IMG/VR virus record: IMGVR_UViG_3300044641_001398
Span: 1 to 34,006 of that record
Source: a virus
Strand: one strand, 5' to 3'
Length of the DNA stretch: 34,006 nt
The notes under the pieces are model-generated. The model was not told where the DNA came from, did no database searches, and was given only the letters and a program-made list of their open reading frames with translations. Shown here piece by piece: positions 2,146 through 33,950 of this stretch; position 1 is the stretch's first letter; each line of letters begins with the position of its first letter. A program made the translations under genes and the position numbers.

Positions 2146-5100
2146 TTATATTTGGTTTTGAATAGTGTGTTTTAATTGAATTATTGCCCTTTTTTATTTC
2201 GGACACCAATTTATTTGATATTTGGTCAACATAAACAAATTGAACGGGTTTGTTTTCAACCGTTTTTATTAATTCGTCAACCTTGTTGATGATTTGTTCG
2301 TTTGTTTTCCAACTCATATCGATGGCGAATCGTTCGGCCATTTTCATATTGTTGACCGCATCGGATGAATGTAATTTAACCGATTCCGATTCCTTGACAA
2401 TTCGAACAACATCGTTATTTGTCAACCCCGCCAATTCTTTGTTTTGTTCGGCGGTCATCACGCGTTCGTTTGGGTGTAATATTGCAGAAAATCCGCCTTT
2501 ATTATCAAGGTTTCCGCCTTTTCCCGTGTTTTCGGTTCCCTCAAAAAATGTTGGCAATGATGAAATGAACGCCGTCAATGCCGTGATGTCGCGAATTGTT
2601 GATGATAATGGCGACGCATCGCGATTTTCAACGTGTCCCGTGTACGCTTTGAAAGCCGTGTTTGCTAATTCAATTCTTTGTTGTTTTTTCTGTTCTTGCA
2701 TTTTTTTACGTTCCAATTCGGCTTGTTTTCGTTCCTCGGCCGCCAATGATTGGTCCGCCTCTAAAACGCCACGTTCGGCAATTTGACGCAATTGGTCTTG
2801 ACGCGTTTTTGAATTCTCAATTTCCTTGTCTAAAATTTCCTCACGTCTTTTTGATTGTTCGATGAAAATTTTTGTCAATTCATCTGCCAATAATTGGGCC
2901 GCATCAATTAAATCTTTTGTTTGTTTTTTTTGCTTTTCCAACGCGTCTTTTGTTGCGTCCAGACCGTCTTTTATTGCCTTTGCCAACGCATCTTGTTTCT
3001 TTTTTGCGTCATCCAACGTTTTGTTTTGTTGGTCGCGCAATAATTTATCCAATTCCAATTGCTTGTCGGCAATTATTTTTTTATCCGCGGCCGAATCTTC
3101 TAACAATTTTATTTCGCGTTTCAATTTGTCAATGGCCAATTGTTCCAAGGCCTTTTGCAAATCATCTTCATCTTTTATTTTTCGCGTTGCTGAATCTTCT
3201 AATAATGTGAATTCAAATTCAATGTCATCCATTTTCTTTTGCAAATCAATGTCATCATATTTTTGACGAATTTTTCGCAATTTATCTTGGTGTTGTTCCT
3301 CTAATTGAATTTCAATTTTATCTTGTTGTTCGGTTTGTTCCTTTGTTAATTTTCCGATTTTATCATATTTTTCTTTTATTGATTCTTTTTCCCTTTCAAA
3401 CCTCAATCGTTCTTGTTCAATTTCACGTTGTTTTTCGTCATCAATATTTTCGGCCGTTAAATCTTCTAAATATCTTTTTAAATCTAATTCAATGCGTTTT
3501 ATTTCATCCGCCCGTCTTTGTGCGTCTGCAATTTGTGAATTATTTTTTTCTTTTGAAATATTCACCGATTCATCCGCGTTGTTTTTTTCATCAACCAATT
3601 GTTCATGATTCAAATCATCAATTGCATCTTTATAAAGTTTTCTTTGAATTTTTAATGTTGATATTTTTGAATCTTGTATATTTAATTCATTAATTACGGC
3701 CTTTTGTTGTTGTATATTGTCATATTTATAATCTTCATCATTTGATTTTCTATAATCCGCATCTAATTTTCTTAATTCCTCAATATTTTTTTTACGTCTT
3801 TCTGTAATTTCAACCAAATCACCGCTAATTTCATTTAATTTTTCTTGATATGCTTTTCTTAATTCACCTCTTTGATTCAATTTAATTAATTCTTTTTCCT
3901 CATTATTTGCCAAATCCAACGCCTTTTGATGTCTTTTTTTCATTGCATCAATTCGACTATCAAAAATTTTATTTTCTCCCTCTATTATTTTATCAAATGT
4001 TCCCGTTGATGTTTCAAATATTTCCTGGGCCGTTTCCGCTTCCGATGTAAAAAATCCCAATGCGTCCGCTAATTCATAAACCGCAACCGCAACCAAACCG
4101 ATGACATTGGCTTTCATTGATGCGTCCAATGTTTTGAATGATTTCGTTGCCCCGTCTGTATTTTTGGCAAACAATGACATTGCCGCACCATAAATTTCCG
4201 TTGCGCCTTTTCCAATTTTCATTGCGGTGTTGACCGCTAAAATTGTTCCTTTATAAACCAAAAAACCTTTTACAACCTTTGTCACAACCAGGATGATTGT
4301 GTCCAAATTTTGACGAATAAATTTAACGGTTTTCGCTAATTCACCCCCACCGCGACCGAATTCAATCATTGCCGTTTGCCATGCGTTTGATAACTTTTGC
4401 ATTTCCGCGGACAATGTTCCCGTTCGATTTGCCGCGTCTTCACCCGCGTTTGTGTAACCGTCAATATTGTTTGTTAATTCTAAAATTCGGTCCTTTTGTG
4501 ACAATACCGATTTTGCCGCACTAATATTTTCTTTTCCAAATATTTTTAACATTGCAACCTCATCGTTTTGCGCTTTGCTTAATTCGGTCAAACGTTGATT
4601 TAATGACAATGAATTGTCAGATAAAATATTGACATCAATTCCCGCACGTTCGAATGATTCTTGGGCCTCTTTTGGCAACCCTTTTGCCGCGCCCAATGCC
4701 AACAAAACATTTCTCAATTTAGTCCCCGCCTCGGAACCTTTTATCCCTTTTTCAGCCAATCCCTCAATTGCGGCCGCGGATTCTGAAATTGAAACATTGT
4801 AAGATTTTGCAACGGGTCCAAATTCTAACAATGCTTCGGTCACTTGCGGAATTTCCGCCGACCCAAATTTGGCGGAACCCGCCAACACATTGACGAATTT
4901 AGACGCCTGGTCCGCACCCGCGCCGAATTGATTCATCGCATCGGTCAAACGTGTTGCCGCATCGGGCAATTCCAATCCCGACGCATCCGATAAAATCAAC
5001 GCTTGGTCGGTCACCTCTTTTAATGCTTCGGAATTTTGTAACAATTCAGGTTTCGCCGACGCGATTAATTTTAACGCCTCTGCGTATTGTGTGGCGGACG

Positions 5101-10408: not shown

Positions 10409-11140
10409 TTATATATTTCCAAATGAAACATTCATCGGTTCAACTTCAAATTCATCAAAGACAATCCAATCAACACGAACATTCGTGTCAGTGATGTCCG
10501 TTGCTGAATCAATTTCAAATGATGTGTCATCAATTAAATTTGCGATTGTATAATCGACATTTTCAATTGTCACCGTGTCGAGGTCTTTTAAAAATAGTGT
10601 TGACGGCAATGTCACCAAATAAGTGACACCCGATTGAAAAACAATTGATGACGCGGTTGTGTCATAACGTTCGAAATATTGAATGAAACGATTGGCCGAA
10701 ATAGCATCGACAACGCCATGGTTGAACGCATCGCGGCAAATCACCGAAATTTGTCCCATGATTGCAACGTTTGAATTCTCATTCGTGTTTGCAACCATTC
10801 CCGCAATTGTATTTTTATAGTTTGATTTACGAACATATTCGGTCCAAATAAAAAATTTCAATGCGCCTTTTAAACCTTCATAAATAACATATTTATCATT
10901 TGAATCTAAATAGGTTGTTCCGTCTAATAATGCAACGTATTTTGGTGATTGCGGAACATTATTGACATCCAGGTCCGCAAAAAATCGGGTCAATAAATCA
11001 TCACCAAGTATTTTTCGCAAATATTCATATTCATAACGGTCGATAAAACCTTGCAAATTTGCGGTTGTATATTGGTTTTTTGCAATTTGAACGGGTTCAT
11101 TTTCAAAATCCGTTGTTGTGATGAATTTGGCGGTCGGCAT
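10409..11140 (-). CDS. Head-tail connector (adaptor) protein, DUF6712-like
   Basis: A 243-residue protein located after the capsid gene. Residues ~30-60 (FIDRYEYEYLRKILGDDLLTRFF) match a signature seen in Bacteroidota phage connector proteins (a 'Y-E-x-x-Y-L-x-x-(I/L)-L-G' helix), followed by helical residues ~80-155. The C-terminal ~75 residues form a beta-rich extension (SGVTYLVTLPSTLFLKDLD...). Connectors form a ring beneath the portal. The assignment rests on the motif and order. Confidence 0.72.
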   Translation of the reverse strand: MPTAKFITTTDFENEPVQIAKNQYTTANLQGFIDRYEYEYLRKILGDDLLTRFFADLDVNNVPQSPKYVALLDGTTYLDSNDKYVIYEGLKGALKFFIWTEYVRKSNYKNTIAGMVANTNENSNVAIMGQISVICRDAFNHGVVDAISANRFIQYFERYDTTASSIVFQSGVTYLVTLPSTLFLKDLDTVTIENVDYTIANLIDDTSFEIDSATDITDTNVRVDWIVFDEFEVEPMNVSFGNI

Positions 11141-11150
11141 GTTTTATTTT

Positions 11151-11522
11151 TTATTTCGTTTCCAATCTGTTCGAAATGATTTTTGCTATTTTTCTTTTTT
11201 CTAAATCCAACGCGGCAATTTGTCCAACAAATGCCGTGTCACCTGGATTGATTCCCAATGATGTTTTTGTCAATGATGGGTGATTAAGATATTCAACAAC
11301 CGACATTTTTTTCAATTGGGTTTCTGAATATTTCGATTTTTTAGTATAATCAACCGCGACAACCTTTGTGTTTGTTTTTGGCGATTCTATTTCAACCATT
11401 GGTTCAACATTTTCGGTTGATTCAATTGATTCAACAACGTTTTCAATGTGTTTTTCAACCCCGTTTAAAATTGGTTTTTCAACCTTTATTGATTTGTTTT
11501 TGGGCGATTGACTTTTTGCCAT
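11151..11522 (-). CDS. Charged linker-like protein after the capsid gene
   Basis: A 123-residue protein of unknown family. I start it at the ATG at 11522 (MAKSQSPKNKSIKVEK); the in-frame ATG at 11588 would place the first 22 codons inside the capsid terminator hairpin, which is unlikely. Residues 1-75 are disordered and Lys/Glu/Ser/Val-rich; residues ~80-123 form a small helical domain (SETQLKKMSVVEYLNHPS...). Its location between capsid and connector suggests a minor head protein. Confidence 0.65.
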   Translation of the reverse strand: MAKSQSPKNKSIKVEKPILNGVEKHIENVVESIESTENVEPMVEIESPKTNTKVVAVDYTKKSKYSETQLKKMSVVEYLNHPSLTKTSLGINPGDTAFVGQIAALDLEKRKIAKIISNRLETK

Positions 11523-11556
11523 AAAAATGTTTTTGATTATTGATTTCTTTTCACCC

Positions 11557-11585
11557 AAAAACCCCGAACCATTTACGATTCGGGG
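11557..11585 (-). terminator. Intrinsic terminator after the major capsid gene
   Basis: The minus strand has CCCCGAATC, loop GTAAAT, GGTTCGGGG, then TTTTT. The stem is at least seven perfect pairs. It lies 23 bases after the capsid stop codon and would produce high levels of capsid mRNA with partial read-through into connector genes. Confidence 0.88.
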
Positions 11586-11607
11586 CAATTAGGAAAACAT
11601 GAAAATT

Positions 11608-12969
11608 TTAAACCGCCAATGCTGCGATGTCAGTTGCGAAATCACCTTTCACAAATGCGCCTTCATTATTTTCTGAAATATAAAGGTTTCCGCGTAATTC
11701 ACCGATGATTGTCACCAAGTTTTTAGTAAAGTCGTCATTTTCCCAACCAACCATGATGTTGATTCCCTCACGTTGATAGAAAATTGCTTTTGAAAAATCA
11801 CCGATAACATAATCACCCGCCGTTACACCTGGATTTTCAACAATACGAACACCGCCAATTGTCGCGCCACCCGCCGTTGAAAATGGGGGCATGATATAAT
11901 GACCGTCGGTTCCTTTTGTCAAGTCCATTGCCGCCGCGTCTGCGGGGTTCAAAATACAAATGTTTGGAACGAAATTCGCCAAAACGATTTGTGAAATTGC
12001 GGCACGAATAACGTCAAAATTATTTGGCGTTATAATTGTTCCCGCCAATGAACCCGCTGCAAATGTTGTTGCATGGTCCATTAAACCTTGCATGTTTGCA
12101 CCTGAATATAATTCCTCGTCCAACGTCAAGTTTAATTCAATCAATAATTCGTCATTGATAGCCGAACGCATGAATGAAATATCGTTCAACATTTCAGTTG
12201 AAACCTTAACTTTTGCCGCGATTTTCAACATGTCAAGTTTAACCTCAACAAAATCAAAATCGATTGATGGTTTTGTTGTCCCTTCAGCCGTATATGCCGC
12301 CGAACCGTCGCGATTTCTTTTGTCAACTAAATGAACGGTTTTTGCGGTTGTCGAACGACGACCGAAAAGATTCACTAAAAATGGACGTCTTGTTGCGATG
12401 TCGGTATAACCTGGAACCAATTCACCCGCCAACATTTCACGACCCGTGATGTTTCCAAATGTGATTGTTCCCGCCGCTTTTACATGTTCAGGATTTTCAT
12501 CCGAAACAACCGAAATAAACGTGTTCGAACGATTTTTTTGCGCTAACATTAAAGAATCTTTGATTTTTTCAACCGAATCATTTATAAATGATTTGAATGA
12601 CATCGGTTTTGATTCTTTTTTACTTTTTTCAAGTAACGCAATCGTTTCACCTTGTTTTTTAACGATTTCATTAAGGTCATCAAGACCCTTTTGATTCATT
12701 TTTTCGATGTCGGCTTTGATTTGTTCAACGTCCGATTTGCTCAATTTTAATTCAATCGCCTTTTCAATCAAATCTTGTTTTAATTTGATTTGTTCTTGAA
12801 TTTCTTTGAGTGATTCGGGTGTGATTGCCGCCGCCGCGCCCGTTGCGCTAATTAGGCCAATTGATTCCATTCCGAAACCGTTGACCGCTGCAAAACACGC
12901 GCAAATTATTGCGGTGAATGCCATAATTCCACGGAAAACATTCCATGAATTGTGATTTTGTTTTTTCAT
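11608..12969 (-). CDS. Major capsid protein, HK97 fold, with N-terminal delta domain
   Basis: A 453-residue protein. Residues ~50-118 are a coiled coil resembling the HK97 delta (scaffold) domain; residues from ~120 to the end resemble the HK97-type shell (ITGREMLAGELVPGYTD, KIAAKVKVSTEMLND, GGVRIVENPGVTAGDYVIGD). The S78 protease gene immediately upstream probably removes the scaffold. An odd feature is residues 11-31 (VFRGIMAFTAIICACFAAVNG), a membrane-like or signal-like hydrophobic segment before the delta domain. The start overlaps the protease stop by 4 bases (ATGA), indicating coupled translation. A terminator follows. Confidence 0.92.
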   Translation of the reverse strand: MKKQNHNSWNVFRGIMAFTAIICACFAAVNGFGMESIGLISATGAAAAITPESLKEIQEQIKLKQDLIEKAIELKLSKSDVEQIKADIEKMNQKGLDDLNEIVKKQGETIALLEKSKKESKPMSFKSFINDSVEKIKDSLMLAQKNRSNTFISVVSDENPEHVKAAGTITFGNITGREMLAGELVPGYTDIATRRPFLVNLFGRRSTTAKTVHLVDKRNRDGSAAYTAEGTTKPSIDFDFVEVKLDMLKIAAKVKVSTEMLNDISFMRSAINDELLIELNLTLDEELYSGANMQGLMDHATTFAAGSLAGTIITPNNFDVIRAAISQIVLANFVPNICILNPADAAAMDLTKGTDGHYIMPPFSTAGGATIGGVRIVENPGVTAGDYVIGDFSKAIFYQREGINIMVGWENDDFTKNLVTIIGELRGNLYISENNEGAFVKGDFATDIAALAV

Positions 12970-13775
12970 TTTGTGAAAATTTTTAATAGATTTTTTGATA
13001 ATTCATTGATTTGTTTTTGCTGCAAACCTTTATCGTTTGCCTCGTTTAATCTGTTCAATTCATCATTCGGCTTTTCAATTGGACGGGTGTCATTGGCAGA
13101 CGACGACGCGTTTTTGAAAAGTGAATCAATGTTTTGATATGCGGATATAATTTGAGCATGTTGAATTTGTAATTGCGAATGTGTTTCATCCGTCAATCCC
13201 GTTTGTTTGATAGCCGTAAAAATTGCGTCCATTTTCTTTTTAAGAAAATCCAACGCGTCTTGTTTTGATTCCGATTTGAAACCCATGAAAGGGGTCATAT
13301 CGTTTGCACCCCAGGCAACCGTTGAACCTTCATATAATTTTAATTCCTTTAATATGAAAACTTCGTCATCACCGTTTGTTGATTCGATAAATTCATAACG
13401 GATTGTTTTATAGCCGACGGAATGTTCGTTGTAAACACCCGCTTCGTAAAGTTTTAAGGTGTCAACACCAAGTCCCGTTGGGACAATTTTTGATTCAAAA
13501 TAAAGTCCGAAATTATCTTCACTCAATAAATATGGTTTTCCCAAAACTTTTTGTGTGTCATGTTGTAACAAATGCAAAATTTGATTTGTTCCATTTGGTC
13601 CGCGTTCGGCGATTGTTTTGGCGAATGCGCCTTTTTCAATTATGTCACCGTATGAATCGACATTCCCAAAATGGGCGAAATATCCCGTGACAATTCCCGA
13701 TTTGACGTCAACGTCTTTTAATTTGCCCGTCAATTCTTTATATTCAATTTCTTTGTTTATTCGTGTTTTGCTCAT
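12966..13775 (-). CDS. Prohead maturation protease (HK97 gp4-like, S78 family)
   Basis: A 269-residue protein from ATG 13775 (MSKTRINKEIEY); the ATG at 13802 would add nine residues and overlap portal by 23 bases. The N-terminal ~160 residues match the caudoviral prohead protease: GIVTGYFAHFGNVDSYGD near the start, the catalytic His in LLQHDTQKVLGKP (~72) and the His-Ser pair in NEHSVGY (~118-119). The C-terminal ~100 residues are a Gln/Lys/Asn-rich helical extension and may be a scaffold-like tail. It starts 4 bases after the portal stop and overlaps the capsid start by 4. It should cleave the capsid delta domain and itself. Confidence 0.9.
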   Translation of the reverse strand: MSKTRINKEIEYKELTGKLKDVDVKSGIVTGYFAHFGNVDSYGDIIEKGAFAKTIAERGPNGTNQILHLLQHDTQKVLGKPYLLSEDNFGLYFESKIVPTGLGVDTLKLYEAGVYNEHSVGYKTIRYEFIESTNGDDEVFILKELKLYEGSTVAWGANDMTPFMGFKSESKQDALDFLKKKMDAIFTAIKQTGLTDETHSQLQIQHAQIISAYQNIDSLFKNASSSANDTRPIEKPNDELNRLNEANDKGLQQKQINELSKNLLKIFTK

Positions 13776-13779
13776 AAAA

Positions 13780-15177
13780 TTATTGTTGAACGTTTGCGTC
13801 AATCTTGTCTTTATATTTTGATGGTAAAATCAATTTGTCGGCCACTTGGTCGGGGTCGTTTTTTGGTTGAATTATTTCATAATCCATTATTAAACGATAT
13901 TCATTTCGCGTTATGATTCCTTCTTCGACCTCTTTTGTTAATCGTTCGGATAAAATTTTCAAATCCGATTGCAAAGCGGGAATTGATTTTGTGTCGAAAT
14001 CAATATAATATTGGGGACCAAAATCACGAACAATGAATGTGTTCAATGTGTCGCGAAAATCACACATTTCAGGAATCACTGCATTCAAATAAAATGAACG
14101 TTCGGCCGTGATGACGTTGTCGCGTGTCGATGCATCTTGCGAATTCAGCATGACAACGGGAACGTTCCATATATTACATATTTGTTCACGGTCCATTTTC
14201 TGTGAATCAATTATTGCCAAATCCACGGGCGACAATCCCATGTTCACCCAATTTAATGACGCGGATGTTGCAATAACTCTTTTAAAGTTTTCAACCCCCG
14301 CCGTTCGTTTGTCGAATTTTTTTTGAATTGCGGATGCCTCATCGGGTGTTAAAAATCCACCATCTTCGCCCGTTGTCGGACCCTGGGACAACAATCCCGC
14401 CATTCCCATGTTTTCATAAGCATAGGCGGACGCCGCGTAACTTTTATTTGATTTATCAATCAATTTTTGTGATGATTCGATGGGCGAATAACCATAAACA
14501 AAATCTTGATATGTCATCGCGGGATTCCATGTTTTGGAATGATAAACCTCATCGGTTGTAAATTCCAAATTGAAATCTGAATCAATTATATATGTGACCT
14601 TATTTCGTTCTAAATAATTCGCGCCCTCATTCAAATTAACCGTCATAAAATGCGACGGCAAAATAAACATTTGGGATGTTGTTTTGAATCCCGACGGTTT
14701 CAATTTATACAAATAACGGTTTCCCGTCAAAAGTTTATATCCCAATGCTTCTTGAATAAACAATGGCCATGTTTGAATTCTGTTTGGGTTTTCCAACAAC
14801 GCGTTTAATTGCTTGTTGTTTGATTGAACCCAATATTTTGCCTTGGTTTTTATTGCGTTGTATGTGTCACCCGCCTTTTGATAGGCTTCATATTCGGTCT
14901 TTGCCTTCGTTCTGTTTGCGCCCTCTTTTAATTCATAGACGGTCCACGGCATTTGTGACGCGCGTTTGGTGATTAATCCGATGACTGAATAAACATCCGT
15001 ATTCATACGGTATGACATTTCAATCAACTTTTTTTGGTCCGCGGTCCCCGTTTGCCAACCTTTTAAAACGTCGAATAAACCCAAAGTAAGTTTATTTTGG
15101 TTTATTGGTCCAACGTTTTGATTCAATGCCTTTTGGGACGAATCAAAATAAAAGGGATTTCGTATTTTTAAAGCCAT
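13780..15177 (-). CDS. Portal protein
   Basis: A 465-residue protein of the HK97-type portal family: an N-terminal tail, MNTDVYSVIGLITKRASQMPW in the clip/wing region, LLTGNRYLYKL around 155-165, then DRTAG-like KKFDKRTAGVENFKRVIAT, and NVPVVMLNSQDASTRDN near the C-terminal stem. It forms the dodecameric ring for DNA entry and contacts the terminase and connector. It is the first gene after a 56-base gap holding a promoter and a shared 20-bp site, so it probably begins the head operon. It ends 4 bases before the protease start. Confidence 0.92.
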   Translation of the reverse strand: MALKIRNPFYFDSSQKALNQNVGPINQNKLTLGLFDVLKGWQTGTADQKKLIEMSYRMNTDVYSVIGLITKRASQMPWTVYELKEGANRTKAKTEYEAYQKAGDTYNAIKTKAKYWVQSNNKQLNALLENPNRIQTWPLFIQEALGYKLLTGNRYLYKLKPSGFKTTSQMFILPSHFMTVNLNEGANYLERNKVTYIIDSDFNLEFTTDEVYHSKTWNPAMTYQDFVYGYSPIESSQKLIDKSNKSYAASAYAYENMGMAGLLSQGPTTGEDGGFLTPDEASAIQKKFDKRTAGVENFKRVIATSASLNWVNMGLSPVDLAIIDSQKMDREQICNIWNVPVVMLNSQDASTRDNVITAERSFYLNAVIPEMCDFRDTLNTFIVRDFGPQYYIDFDTKSIPALQSDLKILSERLTKEVEEGIITRNEYRLIMDYEIIQPKNDPDQVADKLILPSKYKDKIDANVQQ

Positions 15178-15185
15178 GTTGGTGA

Positions 15186-15215
15186 CAAATATAATAATTT
15201 AGATTTATTCGACAA
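15186..15215 (-). promoter_or_regulatory. Promoter of the head operon
   Basis: The minus strand has a -7 box TATATTTG (15186-15193), exact to TAnnTTTG, and TTG at 15213-15215 with a 19-base spacer, the Bacteroidota arrangement. The start would lie a few bases before the portal ATG at 15177, giving a very short leader. The 20-bp site at 15209-15228 overlaps the -33 element, suggesting regulation at this promoter. Confidence 0.7.
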
Positions 15216-15228
15216 CAAACGTTTACAA
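15209..15228. promoter_or_regulatory. Shared 20-bp late operator candidate, copy upstream of portal
   Basis: The plus strand TCGACAACAAACGTTTACAA is identical to the minus strand of 8140-8159. It covers the -33 region of the portal promoter and has the palindromic core AAACGTTT. The match ends exactly at both borders, so it is a discrete site and not part of a longer repeat. Confidence 0.6.
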
Positions 15229-15233
15229 ATATT

Positions 15234-16694
15234 TTAGACAACAAAGAATTCACGGCGTGTTTTTCCGAATGTTTCAATAATTGAATAGGCCGTGACATCC
15301 ACTTGGTCATCATGTTTGCCGTTTGGAAATGTGATAATTTCTTGAAAAAACGATTCATTCCAACCGCCTTTTAAAACCTTGACACGTCCGCCGTGGATGT
15401 ATGGGGCGCATTCCTCAACGCGCGTGATTTTACCTTTTGCGACGTGTTTGTCATCTATAAATGTGACGTTTAAACCTTTTTTTGATAGCAACGATTTGAT
15501 TCCGTGTCCCGATGCCTTTTTTTCAACGTGAATCAACGTGTTTTGCGGCAATTGATGGGCCGTCATTAATGAACCGATTGATTCCACTAATTCATATAAT
15601 TCCAACCAAATTTGCTCACAATATATTAAAATAAGGTCATCACCTTTTTTTGTTGTGATTAAAATGGCCGTTGGGTCATTGATTGTTTTGTCGGTGAATG
15701 CCCCATCAATCCAAACATCGAATTTCAAACCCGTTCGGTCAACCTTTTCAATGATGTCAAACCAATTTCGTTTTATCATTTCACCTTCTTGGGGTGACGG
15801 TCTTTGTTGATACAATGACGAAAATGTCCGCGGTGATTTATCCCGAACGTCCTCAATTTTTTCCCGTGAATGCCAATGTTCCAACAATGCTTCGCCAATT
15901 TCGCGCGGGTCGTTGATGTCGTCCAAATCTTCGCGCAATGCGGGAATCTTAATCATTTCCCATTCATCACGTTCGGACGCTAATAACCGCCCCGCCAAGT
16001 CATCTTCATGCCAACGGGTGAACAACATCAATTGTTTTGAATTATTGTGAAAACGGGTTTTAAAAACGTCTTGATACCAATCCCAAACACGATTCCGAAT
16101 TGTCTGTGAATTGGCGTCGGCCCTATCTTTGTAGGGGTCATCAATGATTCCAATGTCAACGGATGTTCCCGTCAATGCCTGGCCAACACCGACCGTTTTG
16201 AAAAATCCCGAACCGCCAATGATTTCAAAGATTTCCGAATTTCGCAATTTACCTTGTCGGGCGTCGGTTGAAACGTTTTTTGAATTCAATAATGTGTTGG
16301 GAAATATTTTTCGGTATTGGTCTGAATCAATTATCAATTGTGTTTTGCGATTAAACCCCGATGACAATGTCGGCGAATATGACGCCAATGCGATTTTTGT
16401 GTCGCGGTTTTGTCCTAATATCCACGCGGGGAAAACCTGGGATGAAATGGTCGATTTAAAATGTTGCGGCGGGATGAAAATCATCAATTTTTTAACGTCG
16501 GGTGAATTGTAAAAATTCGTCAATCTTTTACAAATATATTCAATATGCCAAGGGATTGAACCATCGGGCAACAATCCGAACGGCGCAACCAAGGAAAAAA
16601 AATCATGAAGGTTTCGACGCGATAATTCGGCCAAAATATCTTCATGGGTGAATCCCTTTATTGCTTCATTTATCTTTTGAAAGTTTGTCGGCAA
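15234..16694 (-). CDS. terL: Terminase large subunit
   Basis: A 486-residue protein that pumps DNA into the prohead and cuts it. The N-terminal ATPase has a variant Walker A (PPQHFKST, ~75-82) and a Walker B (DIGIIDDP, ~180-187). The C-terminal RNase H-like nuclease shows the first acidic site in VWIDGAFTD (~328-336) and HDDQVD (~461-466). There is no in-frame ATG before the ATPase core: the only upstream start is TTG at 16694, which overlaps the TerS end by 29 bases. Translation is therefore probably coupled to TerS and starts at a rare codon. It ends 57 bases before the portal. Confidence 0.92.
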   Translation of the reverse strand: MPTNFQKINEAIKGFTHEDILAELSRRNLHDFFSLVAPFGLLPDGSIPWHIEYICKRLTNFYNSPDVKKLMIFIPPQHFKSTISSQVFPAWILGQNRDTKIALASYSPTLSSGFNRKTQLIIDSDQYRKIFPNTLLNSKNVSTDARQGKLRNSEIFEIIGGSGFFKTVGVGQALTGTSVDIGIIDDPYKDRADANSQTIRNRVWDWYQDVFKTRFHNNSKQLMLFTRWHEDDLAGRLLASERDEWEMIKIPALREDLDDINDPREIGEALLEHWHSREKIEDVRDKSPRTFSSLYQQRPSPQEGEMIKRNWFDIIEKVDRTGLKFDVWIDGAFTDKTINDPTAILITTKKGDDLILIYCEQIWLELYELVESIGSLMTAHQLPQNTLIHVEKKASGHGIKSLLSKKGLNVTFIDDKHVAKGKITRVEECAPYIHGGRVKVLKGGWNESFFQEIITFPNGKHDDQVDVTAYSIIETFGKTRREFFVV

Positions 16695-17211
16695 TTTCGC
16701 GCAATGTTTGTTCCGATAATTCGGTGATGATTGTATTTGAAACGTTTATTTTTTCGCCGCCCGATGTCAAGTCGGTGTTGTTCTTTAATCCCAAATCACT
16801 GGCAATGATTGCAGCATTGAAAAACCCCGCCGCGGCCCCCTCAAATTTTTGATTGAATATTGTTTCCTCAATCTGTTCGATAACGGCCAAAAATTCCGCC
16901 CTTTTTTCTTTTTGTTCTTTACTTTCATATTTGAAATTACGGAAATAAGAAAATGAACAATTAAGGTGAGAACATAACGCAATATGTGTAAATGGTCTTT
17001 TTATTGGTATTTCAACCAATTCAATTCGTGAACCGCCGCCCATTATTGAAACGGTCATCGGTTTAATTTCAATGAACGGATTTTCATCAACCCATTCAAA
17101 ATATTCACACGCCGCATCCCATAACATTCCAGGGTTTGCGAATAGGGTGTCGCGACCGTGTTTTGAACGGTTGTTCCAAAATTTATTCCCTTTTTCAAAT
17201 TTACCTTTCAT
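16666..17211 (-). CDS. terS: Terminase small subunit
   Basis: A 181-residue protein from ATG 17211 (MKGKFEKGNKFWNNRSKHGRD). The N-terminal Lys/Arg/Asn-rich segment with 'G-N-K-F-W-x-x-R-S-K-H-G-R' resembles small terminases of Bacteroidota phages, followed by helices (MLWDAACEYFEWVDENPF) and an aromatic helix that could be the DNA-recognising turn (HIALCSHLNCSFSYFRNFK). The C-terminal helix (SEQTLREIADKLSKDK) would contact TerL. It binds the packaging site and delivers DNA to TerL. A weak -7-like TATCTTCG lies just upstream of the ATG, so I do not claim a promoter. Confidence 0.87.
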   Translation of the reverse strand: MKGKFEKGNKFWNNRSKHGRDTLFANPGMLWDAACEYFEWVDENPFIEIKPMTVSIMGGGSRIELVEIPIKRPFTHIALCSHLNCSFSYFRNFKYESKEQKEKRAEFLAVIEQIEETIFNQKFEGAAAGFFNAAIIASDLGLKNNTDLTSGGEKINVSNTIITELSEQTLREIADKLSKDK

Positions 17212-17250
17212 GATACGAAGATACAAAAAAACTTGTTCCGTTTATTTACT

Positions 17251-17520
17251 TTACAAAAAACGTTCATTTTGAACCTGTTCAAATCGATAGTTTGGGAATG
17301 ATTCCAATTCCTCTTCCGTGACATCAAAATCACGTTTGACGAATGATTTTTGTTTGTTTTGTTTGTTTTCAATGACAACGGTCAACAATTGAATGTTTTT
17401 TATTGGTTGATTTGTGATTTTCGAAATTGTCGCGTCATCCCAACCGAATGTTTTCATTCGCGTGATTGTTGCGGCCAATGTCCAACTTGATTTTTTTTGA
17501 TATTCTGTTGTTTGCTTCAT
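17251..17520 (-). CDS. Small putative DNA-binding protein upstream of terminase
   Basis: An 89-residue protein of unrecognised family. Residues ~14-45 (LAATITRMKTFGWDDATISKITNQPIKNIQLL) have the spacing of a helix-turn-helix with 'DDATISKITNQPIKNIQ' as a possible recognition helix. The C-terminal half is basic then acidic. It overlaps the preceding gene by 4 bases (ATGA) and lies 39 bases before TerS. A role as late-gene activator or packaging accessory would fit its place at the early/late boundary, but that is only inference. Confidence 0.65.
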   Translation of the reverse strand: MKQTTEYQKKSSWTLAATITRMKTFGWDDATISKITNQPIKNIQLLTVVIENKQNKQKSFVKRDFDVTEEELESFPNYRFEQVQNERFL

Positions 17521-17741
17521 TTCTTTTCAGCGATTGCGAATCCGTATTTTCGGCCGTGTACGGATTTTTTTAAGGTCATCAACTTTTTATATTTGCGGAC
17601 CGTTTTTTTGACAAAATATTTTGCCGCCAATGATTTCCCAAATGGGATAAATTTCACCAACCATCCGAATCGGAATGATGCGATTTCATATTCGCATAAA
17701 AACCCGATTTCATTGTCTTTGCCATTTAATTTGTGTTCCAT
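17517..17741 (-). CDS. Small basic protein, unknown
   Basis: A 74-residue protein with a high Lys/Arg content in the C-terminal half (KKTVRKYKKLMTLKKSVHGRKYG) and aromatic residues in the first half. No motif was recognised. It overlaps the following gene by 4 bases, so they are coupled. It could bind nucleic acid; nothing more can be said. Confidence 0.6.
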   Translation of the reverse strand: MEHKLNGKDNEIGFLCEYEIASFRFGWLVKFIPFGKSLAAKYFVKKTVRKYKKLMTLKKSVHGRKYGFAIAEKK

Positions 17742-17759
17742 GTTGTTTGATTTATTTAT

Positions 17760-17990
17760 TTACCAATTATTAATATTTGTTATACAATAATTGCTACCAA
17801 CATACGCGGTCATCCAATCGCTTTGATTTAAAACGAATTCTTTGTTGTTGCCGCTACATTCATTTTTTATTACAACACTATAATTTTGCGCGTTGTCGGA
17901 TTGTATTGTCCCGCAATTGCATGGTTCGTCTTTTTTGCACGAAAAAGTTAATGCCGAAATTGCCGCGATTGTTAAAATTTTGTTTTTCAT
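17760..17990 (-). CDS. Phage-encoded lipoprotein with flavobacterial export-type signal
   Basis: A 76-residue protein. Residues 1-18 are a signal peptide (MKNKILTIAAISALTFSC) whose Cys fits the lipobox, followed by KKDE, resembling the lipoprotein export signal that sends lipoproteins to the cell surface in Flavobacteriia. The mature part (~58 residues) has four more Cys (CNCG, NECSG, NYC) that could form two disulfides. It is a single gene between the replication and packaging regions. Phage lipoproteins of this kind often block superinfection by binding the receptor; that role is inferred. No promoter was seen directly upstream. Confidence 0.8.
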   Translation of the reverse strand: MKNKILTIAAISALTFSCKKDEPCNCGTIQSDNAQNYSVVIKNECSGNNKEFVLNQSDWMTAYVGSNYCITNINNW

Positions 17991-19481: not shown

Positions 19482-20248
19482 ATAGTTTTCAATTCATTAC
19501 GTTTTTCATTCAAAAAGCCAAGTAAAAAAAAGCGGTTGCCGTTATATTCAACCGATTTGACGGTCCCCGACAAATTGCCCGTCGATTTATAAAGGTCATC
19601 GAATTCGCGCATCCACAATTGAATTTGGTCGGGTTCCGCCTTGATGCTAATTTGGGCCTTTGTTTCCTTTTCCTTTATTTCGTTGGCTTTACCAATCTTT
19701 TCCAACGTCTGTTTAATGGCCATAAATTCCAACCGACATTTTTCGTCATAACTTATTGGATTGAATATCGATTCAACAAAATCGTTGTTTTTCTTATTGC
19801 GTTCCGATTCGGCGGCCCTCAATTCAATGATTTCGCCGTCCAATTCAACGTCGAATTTGCCGAAAAATTCCATGATGACCATTCCATTCACCTGGCCGTA
19901 AATGGTCCCGAAATGTCCCGTTTTGATACGTTCGAAACAAAATCGAACGGTTTCGGGTTGATAGTTTGGATATTTAGTCAAAATTAACCTCACTACTTCA
20001 TTTTTTGCCCCGATTGGTATATCTTGACCTAAGAATGTCAGAAAGTCGTTTAAAATGGCTAAAACAACGTCAAACGCCACATGTTCGCCATAACGTCTTG
20101 ACGTTGAAATCAACGACGGTGTTTTTGTTTCAAGTATTGTTTTTACCGAAAGCGATGGCCAAGCGTTCGGCGATTTGTCGTTGTTCCTCTGCAAGTTTTC
20201 GGGCGATTGCGTCTTGTTTAGATTCGAAGGTAATTTGTTGTTTTCCAT
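19478..20248 (-). CDS. Replication-region protein, DUF6633-like
   Basis: A 256-residue protein. The middle (~70-145: GAKNEVVRLILTKYPNYQPETVRFCFERIKTGHFGTIYGQVNGMVIMEFFGKFD) resembles a family found in Bacteroidota prophages and plasmids next to replication genes; no ATPase or nuclease motif is seen. The C-terminal third is helical. The ATG at 20248 lies inside the preceding gene for 119 bases, and the first ~40 residues are polar and low complexity; a TTG at 20113 would avoid the overlap. It probably takes the place of a helicase loader or partner of the DUF1376 protein; that is inference from position. Confidence 0.7.
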   Translation of the reverse strand: MENNKLPSNLNKTQSPENLQRNNDKSPNAWPSLSVKTILETKTPSLISTSRRYGEHVAFDVVLAILNDFLTFLGQDIPIGAKNEVVRLILTKYPNYQPETVRFCFERIKTGHFGTIYGQVNGMVIMEFFGKFDVELDGEIIELRAAESERNKKNNDFVESIFNPISYDEKCRLEFMAIKQTLEKIGKANEIKEKETKAQISIKAEPDQIQLWMREFDDLYKSTGNLSGTVKSVEYNGNRFFLLGFLNEKRNELKTI

Positions 20249-20897
20249 TTGTTTGGGTGTTATTAGTTAACCATTCTGATTTAAAACCTTGCCATGAACG
20301 TGAAACGGCCTCGGTGATGCAATGTTCGGGTGTTAATCCCGATTTAATTATTTCTTTTTTAATTGATTCAAAGGCGGTTTCAGTATTTGCGGCCCGTTTT
20401 TGTTTTCGGACCGACATCCAATCGGTCGCAACATTTTCAGGGATTCCGAAATCAATCAACGCGCGTTTGAAATCAAATTTTTTATTTTCAATTCTATTTC
20501 TATTTTCATTTATATCTTCATTTTCATTTTCATCTTCTAAAGGCATTGCCGCGGCTTTGCCGTGGCTTTGTTTAATTTCCTCAATATTAGATTCTTTTCT
20601 TTTTTTCCATCCATCGATTGCCCGTTGACGTTGTTTTTCGCCATGCGATTCGCGCTTTTTTATTTCAATGTCCAAACGTTCGTTGAAATATAGTCCGTTT
20701 TCGTCTTTTTTAAATTTTGCCAAAACATCTGCCGCGGCATTGCCGCAACAAAGCCGAATCATTTTTTCGGTTAAATGACCTTTTTGATGTTGCAAACATA
20801 AAAGTGTTATGTATTGGCCCCGTTCATCCATTGTGAGGTCAGCAATTCCCGACAAAAAATCGGATGAATAAAATAAAAATGCGGGGTCTTTTGCCAT
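20130..20897 (-). CDS. Replication initiation protein, DUF1376 family
   Basis: A 255-residue protein from ATG 20897 (MAKDPAFLFYSSDFLSG); a GTG at 20933 is possible but would add residues unlike the family and begin in a hairpin. Residues 3-60 (PAFLFYSSDFLSGIADLTMDERGQYITLLCLQHQKGHL) are the DUF1376 signature found in phage replisome organisers. The central part is charged (ENENEDINENRNRIENKK), then a helical domain similar to C-terminal domains of DnaD/DnaT-like proteins (KRALIDFGIPENVATDWMSV...). It likely binds the origin and recruits host replicative helicase. It follows the 267-base intergenic region, a candidate origin. Confidence 0.82.
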   Translation of the reverse strand: MAKDPAFLFYSSDFLSGIADLTMDERGQYITLLCLQHQKGHLTEKMIRLCCGNAAADVLAKFKKDENGLYFNERLDIEIKKRESHGEKQRQRAIDGWKKRKESNIEEIKQSHGKAAAMPLEDENENEDINENRNRIENKKFDFKRALIDFGIPENVATDWMSVRKQKRAANTETAFESIKKEIIKSGLTPEHCITEAVSRSWQGFKSEWLTNNTQTNGKQQITFESKQDAIARKLAEEQRQIAERLAIAFGKNNT

Positions 20898-20932
20898 GGT
20901 AAAAAATTGCCCCTTGTCAAAATAGTCGAACA

Positions 20933-20951
20933 CTTATCGTTGGGCGATAAG
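20933..20951. promoter_or_regulatory. Perfect 7-bp hairpin/operator before the replication gene
   Basis: The plus strand reads CTTATCG, TTGGG, CGATAAG. There is no T-tract on the minus side, so it is not a terminator for the phage transcripts. It lies 36 bases before the DUF1376 ATG, where it could act as a regulator-binding site or an RNA hairpin in the leader. Confidence 0.6.
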
Positions 20952-21032
20952 ACCTATATTGATTTCGGGGCGTATTTTAAATGTGAATTGTTTTTCATAT
21001 ATCCTATGTTCGTTTCGGATTATGCAATATTA

Positions 21033-21143
21033 CTAAATTATTTTTAAAAAGCAAAACGCGCTTATTGGTCCGCCATTACTACCATCACGAAGTCGGCAAA
21101 CGTTCGGCGCGTTTTTTATCTTGAATGTGTGTGTCGTTGTCAT
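21033..21143 (-). CDS. Possible 36-residue peptide overlapping the structured RNA
   Basis: An ORF from ATG 21143 to TAG 21033 (MTTTHTFKIKNAPNVCRLRD...). Its ATG directly abuts the shared leader element GCAAACCATCAC and a strong promoter lies just upstream, so it may be translated. But the composition is unlike the other genes (Thr-rich start, Gly-Gly-Pro, CFLKII end), and the sequence forms nested stems. I favour a small RNA with a leader-like 5' end over a protein-coding gene. Confidence 0.35.
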   Translation of the reverse strand: MTTTHTFKIKNAPNVCRLRDGSNGGPISAFCFLKII

Positions 21144-21150
21144 GTGATGG
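21046..21150 (-). ncRNA. Candidate phage small RNA with nested stems and anti-leader loop
   Basis: Minus-strand RNA of about 105 nt; the 5' end is approximate, inferred from the promoter. Outer stem: AAAACGCGC (21115-21107) with GCGCGUUUU (21061-21053), nine perfect pairs. Inner stem: GUUUGCC (21101-21095) with GGCGGAC (21074-21068), seven pairs including two G-U. The 20-nt inner loop can close further with ACU/AGU, leaving UCGUGAUGGU in the apical loop. The outer stem is followed by GC and UUUUU (21050-21046), so it may also end the transcript. GUGAUGGU (21088-21081) is the exact complement of the ACCAUCAC found 0-2 bases before the start codons of several early genes. Role inferred: base-pairing regulation. 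No known RNA family is recognised. Confidence 0.6.
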
Positions 21151-21154
21151 TTTG

Positions 21155-21185
21155 CAAATATACTTTAAAACAAGTTTTTGTCAAA
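21155..21185 (-). promoter_or_regulatory. Strong promoter of the structured RNA / replication genes
   Basis: The minus strand has TTTG (21182-21185), a 19-base spacer and TATATTTG (21155-21162), an exact Bacteroidota consensus. The -33 element lies inside the end of the MBL-fold gene. The start would fall near 21150, within or just before the leader-like AAACCATCAC. Confidence 0.82.
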
Positions 21186-26107: not shown

Positions 26108-26138
26108 CAAACATACAATCATTTTTTGAATTGACAAA
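26108..26138 (-). promoter_or_regulatory. Main early promoter
   Basis: The minus strand has TTTG (26135-26138), a 19-base spacer and TATGTTTG (26108-26115), an exact Bacteroidota consensus. It lies in the 120-base gap between the end of the lysis genes and the first early gene. The start would be about 25 bases before ATG 26077. Confidence 0.85.
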
Positions 26139-31470: not shown

Positions 31471-33950
31471 GGTATTGGTTGCTCTGTTAATTTAATCAAA
31501 CCTTGTTCCGTTATTCGCGGACGACTTAATCCGCCCTCGTCGGTCAAAACGGTATCGGAACCAGGTCCGCCGTATTGTGAACCGCCCAATCGCGCGGACA
31601 ATTTATAATTCGTTGATGGGTTCAATTGTGTGAAATCAATGATTCCCGTCACTTTGACATTCGACGCGGATTGTGTTATTTTTGCCGCCGTGAACCCCGA
31701 TTCGGGAATCAATAAATTGTTTAATAATTGATTTCGCGATGCGATTGATGATAATTCGAAAATTCCATTTTGACCCGCGTTCAATGTTTCCATTCGCAAA
31801 CACGCCCATGGAAAAAGTAAATAACCCGCCCCCGTTGCGGGTGTGAAAACCGCTTCGAATTTTGTGTTTTCATTCTGTAAAATCAAACCCGTTGAACCCG
31901 TTGAAATCAATTGATTGTTGGATTCACGGTATAAATTGATAACACATGACCATTCAGGTGTCAAATTGCCGTCCAATTCATAGTCATGAACATCATTTGC
32001 AGCAAAATGATAACGATATAATGTGTCAATACCAACCGTCCCGTTATTTATTATAATGTCATAAACAATTCGAACATCCCAATCGGGTGACAAATAATAA
32101 TTTGATGACTTGAAATTTTGATTGTTGTTTGGTTGCGTTGAATCGAAAAAATCCGACGGAACATTTGAATTTGCGATGAAATCTTCATAACGAATTTTCC
32201 ATGGTATATAAACATTATATTCCTGAAACGAACCAGGTGATGAATTTCCCATTTCAATGATTGCATTCAAATACGGGTCGCCCGTTTCCAATTGAAACCC
32301 CCTTGGTGTATTGATTGCAATTTGTTGAACACCGTTGATTGTTTGAACACCCGACAAATCGAATGAATATGAATCCAATTCAAACCAACGTTCATCTGCT
32401 GAATTATATCCAATCATTCGGCCCGTTATGCTTGTAATGTTTGCGTTTGGATATTGAATAAAGTTTAATGAACAAATTGCGTTCGACATGATTGCGTCTT
32501 CATTCCATGTCCTAATTGATGAAAATCCCGACGATGCGAATGGATTTTGTGGATGAATCCACAATTGTGATTTTCGTGAAAAACTCATCAATTGATAAAT
32601 ATCCGTGTATAAATCAAAATTGTTCACGTCAACAATTAAATTGACTTTATCGGAATTGACGGCCGTCAATCCCGCCGTTTCAACAATTACAGAAATGCAA
32701 AATTCACCCGATGCCGTCAACCTCAATTGTTCGGTCGCCGTTAATTCAAAATCAAATTCAACGTCGATTTGTGATGTTGAAATAAATGTTGCGGTTAAAT
32801 TGGTGATGTCACCATTTGCAACGGGTGTTGGTGATGTTGAATCACAAACAACACGTTTTTGATAAAACATGAAATTTTCGGCACCATCGGTTGCGATGGT
32901 GTTTGAATATTCGGATTGCGGACACAAATAAAAAACCGAAACAATTAATGCGGTTGTGTTATCAACGAAATTTGCCGCGCTTGTTTCTAATTCAAAACTG
33001 ACCTTGGTTTTTTGTGTTATCAATAAACCGTCCGCGCTAAGTAATGACGACGCGTTTGCATAATCTAAATTTGACGTCGAAAAATTATTTGTGAATCCGT
33101 TAAAATTTTCATTGTAATATGCCACCTCACCGAACAATAAATCATCCGTGAACGAATGAATTGTGTTCGGGTTTGAATTGGCCGTGTTTAAATCCGCCCG
33201 AAAAACATATTTCAACGATTGATTTTGTTGGAAATAGGTCGGGTCAATAATATTTTTAATATTGTTTTGTTCACCATCCAGGAAAAACGGGGTGATGACA
33301 AATTCATGTGTGAAATTGAATGTTTGCGTGTATGTTGTTGATGAAACCTTTGTCACGGTCACAACATCGTTAAAAAACCAACTTCGCGGTTGTCCCAATG
33401 GAATGGCCGAAATTGGTGAACCACTTAATCCATTGGCATAAAAGCCCATTGATGAATTGTCCAACATTGAAACAAAATCCGCGGGTTGACTATTTTCAAC
33501 AATACCATAAAATAATTTTATCGCCGTCAATGATGTGCGTCCCTTTATATTCAAATAACTGAAATTCCCAAATGTTCCCGTTTCCGTTCCGCCCGTGTAA
33601 ACAATTGTTGTATCATTTATGAATGTAATTGTTCCGCCATTAATGGCAACATAATTAGTGATTGCGGGGTCCTCATTATTGGCGTCAAATAAATCGCCAA
33701 TTCTGAAACCGTCATCTATAAATGAACCCGATGAACGCGTGATTGTATTTGTTGTGTTATCAACATTGAAAACATTGAACGGACTGGCTTTTGAATTCCA
33801 TGAAACAATAAATGTGATGTCGCATTTTATTCGTTCACCAATTGAACCCAATAAATGGGTTGCAAAATCGGACGTGTCTGAACCGAAATTTTCGCCATTC
33901 GTCAATTGGTTGAAAAATTTACGACTTGTTACTTGAATCACTTGTCCCAT
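31467..33950 (-). CDS. Large tail/baseplate protein, 827 residues
   Basis: An 827-residue, mostly beta protein with many Asn/Thr/Ser/Phe residues, little charge and no membrane segments. It has several ~100-residue sandwich-like segments (for example LTNGENFGSDTSDF at the start, TFISTSQIDVEFDFELTATEQL in the middle). No motif was recognised. Its start overlaps the small helical gene (stop at 33919, the same as 96) by 32 bases, and its end overlaps the 302-residue gene by 4. It is likely a central baseplate or tail-tip structural protein. One synonymous base differs between the two contig-end copies of its first codons. Confidence 0.75.
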   Translation of the reverse strand: MGQVIQVTSRKFFNQLTNGENFGSDTSDFATHLLGSIGERIKCDITFIVSWNSKASPFNVFNVDNTTNTITRSSGSFIDDGFRIGDLFDANNEDPAITNYVAINGGTITFINDTTIVYTGGTETGTFGNFSYLNIKGRTSLTAIKLFYGIVENSQPADFVSMLDNSSMGFYANGLSGSPISAIPLGQPRSWFFNDVVTVTKVSSTTYTQTFNFTHEFVITPFFLDGEQNNIKNIIDPTYFQQNQSLKYVFRADLNTANSNPNTIHSFTDDLLFGEVAYYNENFNGFTNNFSTSNLDYANASSLLSADGLLITQKTKVSFELETSAANFVDNTTALIVSVFYLCPQSEYSNTIATDGAENFMFYQKRVVCDSTSPTPVANGDITNLTATFISTSQIDVEFDFELTATEQLRLTASGEFCISVIVETAGLTAVNSDKVNLIVDVNNFDLYTDIYQLMSFSRKSQLWIHPQNPFASSGFSSIRTWNEDAIMSNAICSLNFIQYPNANITSITGRMIGYNSADERWFELDSYSFDLSGVQTINGVQQIAINTPRGFQLETGDPYLNAIIEMGNSSPGSFQEYNVYIPWKIRYEDFIANSNVPSDFFDSTQPNNNQNFKSSNYYLSPDWDVRIVYDIIINNGTVGIDTLYRYHFAANDVHDYELDGNLTPEWSCVINLYRESNNQLISTGSTGLILQNENTKFEAVFTPATGAGYLLFPWACLRMETLNAGQNGIFELSSIASRNQLLNNLLIPESGFTAAKITQSASNVKVTGIIDFTQLNPSTNYKLSARLGGSQYGGPGSDTVLTDEGGLSRPRITEQGLIKLTEQPIP

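Follow-up and report, generated by a model that had tools for sequence, protein, structure and literature searches.

The gap in front of the replication-initiation gene of this phage carries a likely structured RNA, here called RNA-1, that is probably the folded 5′ region of the replication operon, a pseudoknotted leader or attenuator whose function we infer. The window, by which we mean the whole stretch of DNA analyzed, is an entire virus record of 34,006 bases that is coded almost entirely on the minus strand and is ~4.3% noncoding. Because promoters across the window follow the Bacteroidota consensus TTG-N19-TAnnTTTG and the closest terminases from isolates are those of Flavobacterium phages (43–45% identity), a Bacteroidota host appears likely. 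RNA-1 lies between a phrog_392 hydrolase gene and the O/DnaD-like replication gene, at the head of the replication module, within the widest intergenic noncoding gap of the window (20898–21164, 267 nt). The same gap contains a diverged 16-nt direct repeat at 20953 and 21003 (CCGAAA..ATAGG, minus strand), for which a link to an origin is possible. Elsewhere in the window, the only near-identical contig (L027) matches at 93% identity over positions 10559–17843, the head and terminase region, and ends just short of the early region.

The local anatomy of RNA-1 largely bears out a preliminary description made from the letters alone, which had proposed nested minus-strand stems behind a consensus promoter. 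The promoter P1 is an exact site (21184–21155), the outer stem AAAACGCGC/GCGCGTTTT forms 9 of 9 base pairs, and the inner stem GTTTGCC/GGCGGAC forms 7, two of them G-U. The 19-nt spacing of P1 is shared by the nearest other sites, the promoters at 26115 and 24793 that serve the leader genes 26077 and 24764, and 0.7 exact TTG-N19-TATATTTG sites per strand are expected in shuffled sequence. The apical loop presents GTGATGGT (21081–21088), which is, as had been claimed, the perfect complement of ACCATCAC, an element that recurs as a leader on early genes and that also stands at the start of RNA-1 as strand A; an 8-nt complement to any part of the 11-nt leader arises in ~1% of RNA-1 shuffles. The U-run said to follow the outer stem is real insofar as GCUUUUU does follow it, but some of the run lies within the stem. 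Folding of the 125-nt RNA-1 is ordinary (z = −0.91), and that of its 69-nt core is moderately unusual (z = −2.5). In Bacteroidota, transcription usually starts 4–5 nt from the −7 box (PMC6847099); the predicted 5′ end of RNA-1 therefore falls inside the leader (CCAUCAC or CAUCAC), and the full AAACCAUCAC is probably not carried. The earlier suggestion that the RNA could fold back on itself holds in that the leader-like 5′ strand and the loop can pair.

Table 1 Features of the RNA-1 and RNA-2 region, with window positions, and layout of the group-1 relatives
Feature	Position	Strand	Basis or remark
Promoter P1: TTG (−33), 19 nt, TATATTTG (−7), Bacteroidota type	21155..21184	-	Exact match
RNA-1 strand A, ACCATCAC, also early-gene leader	21144..21151	-	3 nt past −7 box, abutting ATG
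36-codon ORF, opened by ATG after A (0 nt spacing)	21033..21143	-	Weak coding signal
RNA-1 strand B, AAAACGCGC, outer stem 5′ side	21107..21115	-	Sequence, fold
RNA-1 inner stem 5′ side, GTTTGCC	21095..21101	-	Fold
RNA-1 strand A′, GTGATGGT, apical loop, exact complement of A	21081..21088	-	Sequence, architecture test
RNA-1 inner stem 3′ side, GGCGGAC	21068..21074	-	Fold
RNA-1 strand B′, GCGCGTTTT (21053–21061), and U-rich tail GCTTTTT (21046–21052)	21046..21061	-	Sequence, fold
Possible promoter P2 for RNA-2: TTG-N19-TAATATTG, one mismatch	21025..21054	-	Sequence
RNA-2 strand A, CGAACAT	21006..21012	-	Helix with GTGTTCG
RNA-2 strand B, GCCCC	20967..20971	-	Hairpin 20900–20978
RNA-2 small hairpin, CTTATCG-CCCAA-CGATAAG, abuts A′	20933..20951	-	Sequence, fold; group-1 alignment
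RNA-2 strand A′, GTGTTCG	20927..20933	-	Template test
RNA-2 strand B′, GGGGC, and AATTTTTT, few nt short of replication ATG 20897	20901..20913	-	Fold
Replication-initiation gene, O/DnaD-like (MAKDPAFLFYSSDF), downstream of RNA-1 and RNA-2	20130..20897	-	PHROGs primosomal protein / replication initiation O-like; relatives
Leader starts	18882, 19259, 21143, 21887, 22787, 24764, 25022 (CCCATCAC), 26077	-	0–2 nt to ATG
Group-1 layout, 5′ part: promoter, A (e.g. GCGTACCCT), ATGAAAAACATTTTAAA, B (TCCCACCATTAC), small hairpin			
Group-1 layout, 3′ part: A′ (AGGGTACGC), CCTTTG, B′ (GTAGTGGTGGG), TATTT, ATG of next gene			

The pairing between leader and loop is best understood from relatives of this RNA. 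Single-protein scans revealed no close relative of this region, and when genome contigs were scanned with the replication protein a single, weak relative emerged. Using a profile built on that downstream protein (A1), we obtained more than 500 relatives, of which 80 were kept. Many of these have RNAs of ~110 nt that sit, as in the window, upstream of the replication gene and share one order of elements: behind a promoter come strand A, hairpin strand B, a loop with A′, then B′, a U-rich tail and ATG. Other replication-gene relatives had no such RNA at the corresponding place. We distinguish two groups. In group 1, the helices A:A′ and B:B′ interleave in A-B-A′-B′ order and so constitute a pseudoknot, with a modest U-tract (TATTTAGTTTT); in group 2, the loop of a 5′ hairpin contains A, which kisses the loop of a terminator hairpin with a strong T-tract. 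Further versions of the layout occur in L163–168, L219, L221, L222, L224, L225, L237 and L273, with private A/A′ sequences in L219, L222, L224, L225, L237 and L273.

Scans with patterns of the conserved blocks returned at least 120 stretches each, and the matches listed provided 98 distinct group-1 and 76 group-2 sequences. Among these listed matches, an A:A′ helix of 8–10 bp was present in all 96 parsed group-1 sequences, built from more than 20 different A:A′ pairs, and an A:A′ helix was present in 75 of the 76 group-2 sequences. For 30 diverse group-1 sequences, A:A′ covariation was 0.464, compared with 0.180 after shuffling (0/500) and 0.05–0.07 when the strands were slid; 97% of cells pair, 13 pairs are altered on both sides, and 7 of the 9 A:A′ pairs are among those so altered. 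Three rows were scored as unpaired at several A:A′ pairs, their A strand being two columns off in the alignment. Group 2 behaved similarly (0.411 versus 0.159 shuffled, 0/500, 17 sequences). Shuffling does not remove relatedness and the slid control keeps it; both controls agree. In the relatives, the loop thus changes in concert with the 5′ strand of its own RNA, which does not support the preliminary description of the loop as a trans partner of many leaders.

We next asked how far RNA-1 follows this design. It has the A-B-A′-B′ order, with 8 bp in A:A′, 9 bp in B:B′ and GCTTTTT behind them, and its strand A is placed as in the relatives: the group-1 succession of promoter box (TAnnTT(T/C)G), A and ATG has spacings of 3 nt and 0 nt in RNA-1 and of ~4 nt and 0–2 nt in group 1. 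A layout template taken from the relatives, set up after both RNA-1 and the relatives had been seen, scored RNA-1 above all 10,000 of 10,000 dinucleotide shuffles and as the top-scoring stretch of the window, at 48 versus 47 for the best chance stretch elsewhere, which lies inside a coding region. By itself, in a search without positional limits, the A:A′ helix of RNA-1 reached p = 0.065. The group-1 covariance model, run with filters off, matched neither RNA-1 nor RNA-2, and we therefore speak of the same design and not of membership by descent. From architecture alone, then, we infer that the window element shares the A-B-A′-B′ design of the relatives, and the complementarity of leader and loop in the window is most probably a cis A:A′ helix.

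RNA-1 is set back from the replication ATG, and in between, immediately upstream of that ATG, is RNA-2, which may be another element of this design, although the support for it is weaker. Its hairpin (20900–20978) is strong (z = −4.0) and provides a terminator-type structure a few nucleotides before ATG 20897, the arrangement of an attenuator. The small hairpin right before A′ is a feature common to RNA-2 and the group-1 relatives, and GCCCC/GGGGC-T6-ATG is also present in L163–L168. The A:A′ helix of RNA-2 (7 bp; B:B′ 5 bp) gave p = 0.0055 with the template and a wider A start, versus p = 0.46 unconstrained.

In the relatives, the RNA is usually single-copy. The conserved block occurred once per record in nearly all of 36 records, the exceptions being G315 and G320. 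In G315, two group-1 copies (39–64 and 33650–33675) lie near opposite contig ends, pointing to an assembly-end repeat or to a genome terminus close to the RNA; the second match in G320, with 3 mismatches, is probably chance. Among the matches listed, the RNA headed a replication module in 166 of 170 cases: a replication-type gene is the next gene in 112 of them, occupies the second place in 48 and the third or fourth place in 6; here 'replication-type' refers to N-terminal motifs, the family check having been made on the window protein only. From B′ to the next ATG the distance was 8–20 nt (median 11) with T-rich tails, leaving no room for a further promoter. By eye, the genes intervening between RNA and replication gene included nuclease-like (HNH, GIY-YIG), possible methyltransferase and helicase-like genes (L203, L327, L381, L398, L477) as well as small proteins. 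Also by inspection, the replication-type proteins of L213, L392, L304, L404 and L416 have at least five different N-termini behind RNAs of one design, and in several the C-terminal part looks alike, as in domain swapping behind a fixed RNA.

Taking these observations together, we propose that transcription from P1 would yield an RNA whose first nucleotides are A (ACCAUCAC), and that A would pair with A′ (GUGAUGGU) in the loop of the B:B′ hairpin to give an A-B-A′-B′ pseudoknot; RNA-2, with its U6 tail, would be a second element of this kind right before the replication ATG. Hairpin and U-rich tail would end or stall transcription just ahead of the ATG, and how much transcription enters the replication genes would depend on whether A:A′ forms or A is held by a ribosome or protein. 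Because a terminator-type hairpin stands ~20 nt or less from the ATG, transcripts of the replication gene most likely pass through the hairpin, starting either at P1 or upstream. The simplest role would be control of read-through, exerted by A:A′, a helix that would form while B′ is still to be transcribed; it might help or hinder the terminator, and candidate sensors, if there is one at all, would be a phage protein or a ribosome at the ATG that follows A. Since A is also a start-codon leader, a ribosome binding at the 21143 ATG would be expected to compete with A:A′ in the window phage. RNAs of this design may switch replication genes on or off. A broader proposal, which we offer tentatively, is a widespread and undescribed class of phage RNAs in which a phage-private 5′ strand fastens the terminator-hairpin loop, through a pseudoknot or kissing loop, and so times the replication genes; as the window strand also leads seven early genes, it could in addition sense or titrate use of the leader.

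The reading advanced in the preliminary description, a small RNA acting in trans whose loop pairs with the ACCAUCAC leaders of many early mRNAs, now appears improbable. RNA-1 is probably a discrete, structured RNA served by a promoter of its own, but trans pairing with many early leaders found no support, although cross-pairing within this one phage is conceivable. The leader repeats themselves are well founded: the window has 9 copies of ACCATCAC where 0.87 would be expected, a count reached by 0 of 100 shuffles, and at eight minus-strand starts AAAACCATCAC or a close form lies before ATG at the distance first noted, 0–2 nt. The exact 8-nt complement would form a duplex of about −10.8 kcal/mol, and pairing prediction with the loop alone ranks all eight leader starts first, but whole-RNA duplex energies do not put the leader genes first, and a cis partner ~55 nt away competes. 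In the relatives, A′ pairs with the A of its own RNA, and this strand does not recur before other gene starts: 71 loci contained 1 extra A-ATG site, within chance. Exact promoters accompany three leader starts (26077, 24764 and 21143); starts 22787 and 21887 have none, and the leader is therefore tied to the start codon and not to the promoter. Early genes of a phage contig for which no protein shared with the window was detected (G006; L124, 35,000–46,275) carry the similar leaders AAAACCATCACC-ATG and AAAACATCACAATC-ATG, and there the same-strand complement of the leader sits inside ORFs, which fits a translation-start preference and not a set of sRNA targets. We take the similarity in G006 to reflect convergence or a host-driven element. 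Bacteroidota do without Shine-Dalgarno sequences; the nucleotides they prefer upstream of the start include A at −3 and −6 (PMC6847099). On the seven early genes besides RNA-1, the leader is thus probably a translation-start element or preference of these phages. Relatives of the neighboring hydrolase, terminase and RecT genes were checked for the leader and none carried the leader set; a DNA-pattern scan for the leader gave single matches that, apart from G006, were mostly chance. We also considered the leader as a general host element and rejected this because its occurrence in 51 of 297 Bacteroidota genomes only modestly exceeds the reversed-pattern control.

Among the remaining alternatives, it is rather unlikely, though still conceivable, that RNA-1 is a stand-alone noncoding RNA gene with promoter, pseudoknot and terminator, whose target, a protein or something else, is reached in trans and whose place beside the replication genes is coincidental. 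Its single copy, own promoter and terminator, the conserved sequence blocks outside the helices and the varying first downstream gene would all suit such a gene, but an independent gene would not be expected to head the replication module nearly always, 8–20 nt before an ATG, with no second promoter fitting between RNA and gene. We give little credence to a small gene, a 36-aa peptide being translated from the leader and ATG while the stems have no role. The 36-codon ORF, absent from the preliminary description, does open with an ATG at the usual spacing of the leader, and A is followed by an ATG in group 1 as well, with most sequences encoding MK(N/T)(I/F)LNP..TALP; yet its codon score is weak (1st percentile of window genes, 84th of off-frame sequence), it has no convincing family or database match, the peptides of the relatives differ and are sometimes frame-shifted, and compensatory changes preserve the helices. 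It is probably not a protein gene, and a leader peptide is possible yet not needed. A search for paralogy between the 36-aa ORF and the 81-aa leader-gene product found none. Least probable of all is a replication-origin mark whose transcript primes or activates replication: the largest noncoding gap between genes adjoins the initiator gene and holds the diverged repeat CCGAAA..ATAGG, but the RNA persists while the N-terminal parts of the replication proteins differ, and no iteron array was found.

The leader or attenuator reading, which we prefer, would have consequences beyond this phage. Bacteroidota promoters and translation starts are unusual, and to our knowledge few phage RNAs have been described in this phylum. 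Here, contigs of uncultured phages supply more than 150 distinct sequences with a covariation-supported RNA structure, without an Rfam counterpart in the loci tested or a convincing one in isolate phages, and it marks the start of the replication module even where the replication protein differs. If read-through is controlled, the structure would be a general RNA switch governing when phages of Bacteroidota begin to replicate. The cis helix is also a simple alternative to a trans-acting sRNA and is open to testing.

Rfam 15, at gathering and permissive thresholds, gave nothing relevant in the window (best sub-threshold E = 1.5), and no relevant match in L162–L164, L204, L205, L208, L214, L219, L222 and L224–L226, a set without the group-2 loci. 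Isolate phages gave no match to a group-1 RNA and, for a group-2 RNA, only weak matches of 34% cover in Aggregatibacter and Haemophilus phages, none convincing. A separate contig with a group-1 RNA, L209, also has an Rfam DUF805b RNA (RF02914, 42.8 bits) at 4068–4100.

Several known systems nevertheless invite comparison. The Bacteroidota structured RNAs of Weinberg et al. 2010 (Flavo-1, Bacteroidales-1 and others, PMC2864571) share the probable host phylum, but those listed in Rfam give no match here, and the available part of that source contained no phage replication leader among them. ToxI of type III toxin-antitoxin systems (PMC5772629) is likewise a small RNA pseudoknot met in phage biology, a resemblance only, as the window element has neither repeats nor a visible toxin gene. 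Phage c4 antisense RNA (RF01695) and other phage regulatory RNAs are similarly short, act by base pairing and control neighboring genes; unlike c4, pairing here is within one RNA, and neither the window nor the tested relatives match Rfam. Attenuators and pseudoknotted leaders resemble the window RNA in having a promoter, a folded leader, a terminator-type hairpin before the gene and long-range pairing to that hairpin. Plasmid rep leader attenuators are examples of this class. The HMP-PP/thiS riboswitch, with its terminator-embedded aptamer (PMC6478431), is another. In contrast to these, the window RNA has no known ligand or antisense RNA and its A:A′ helix shares no strand with the terminator; it stands before phage replication genes, and its A/A′ pair varies from phage to phage.
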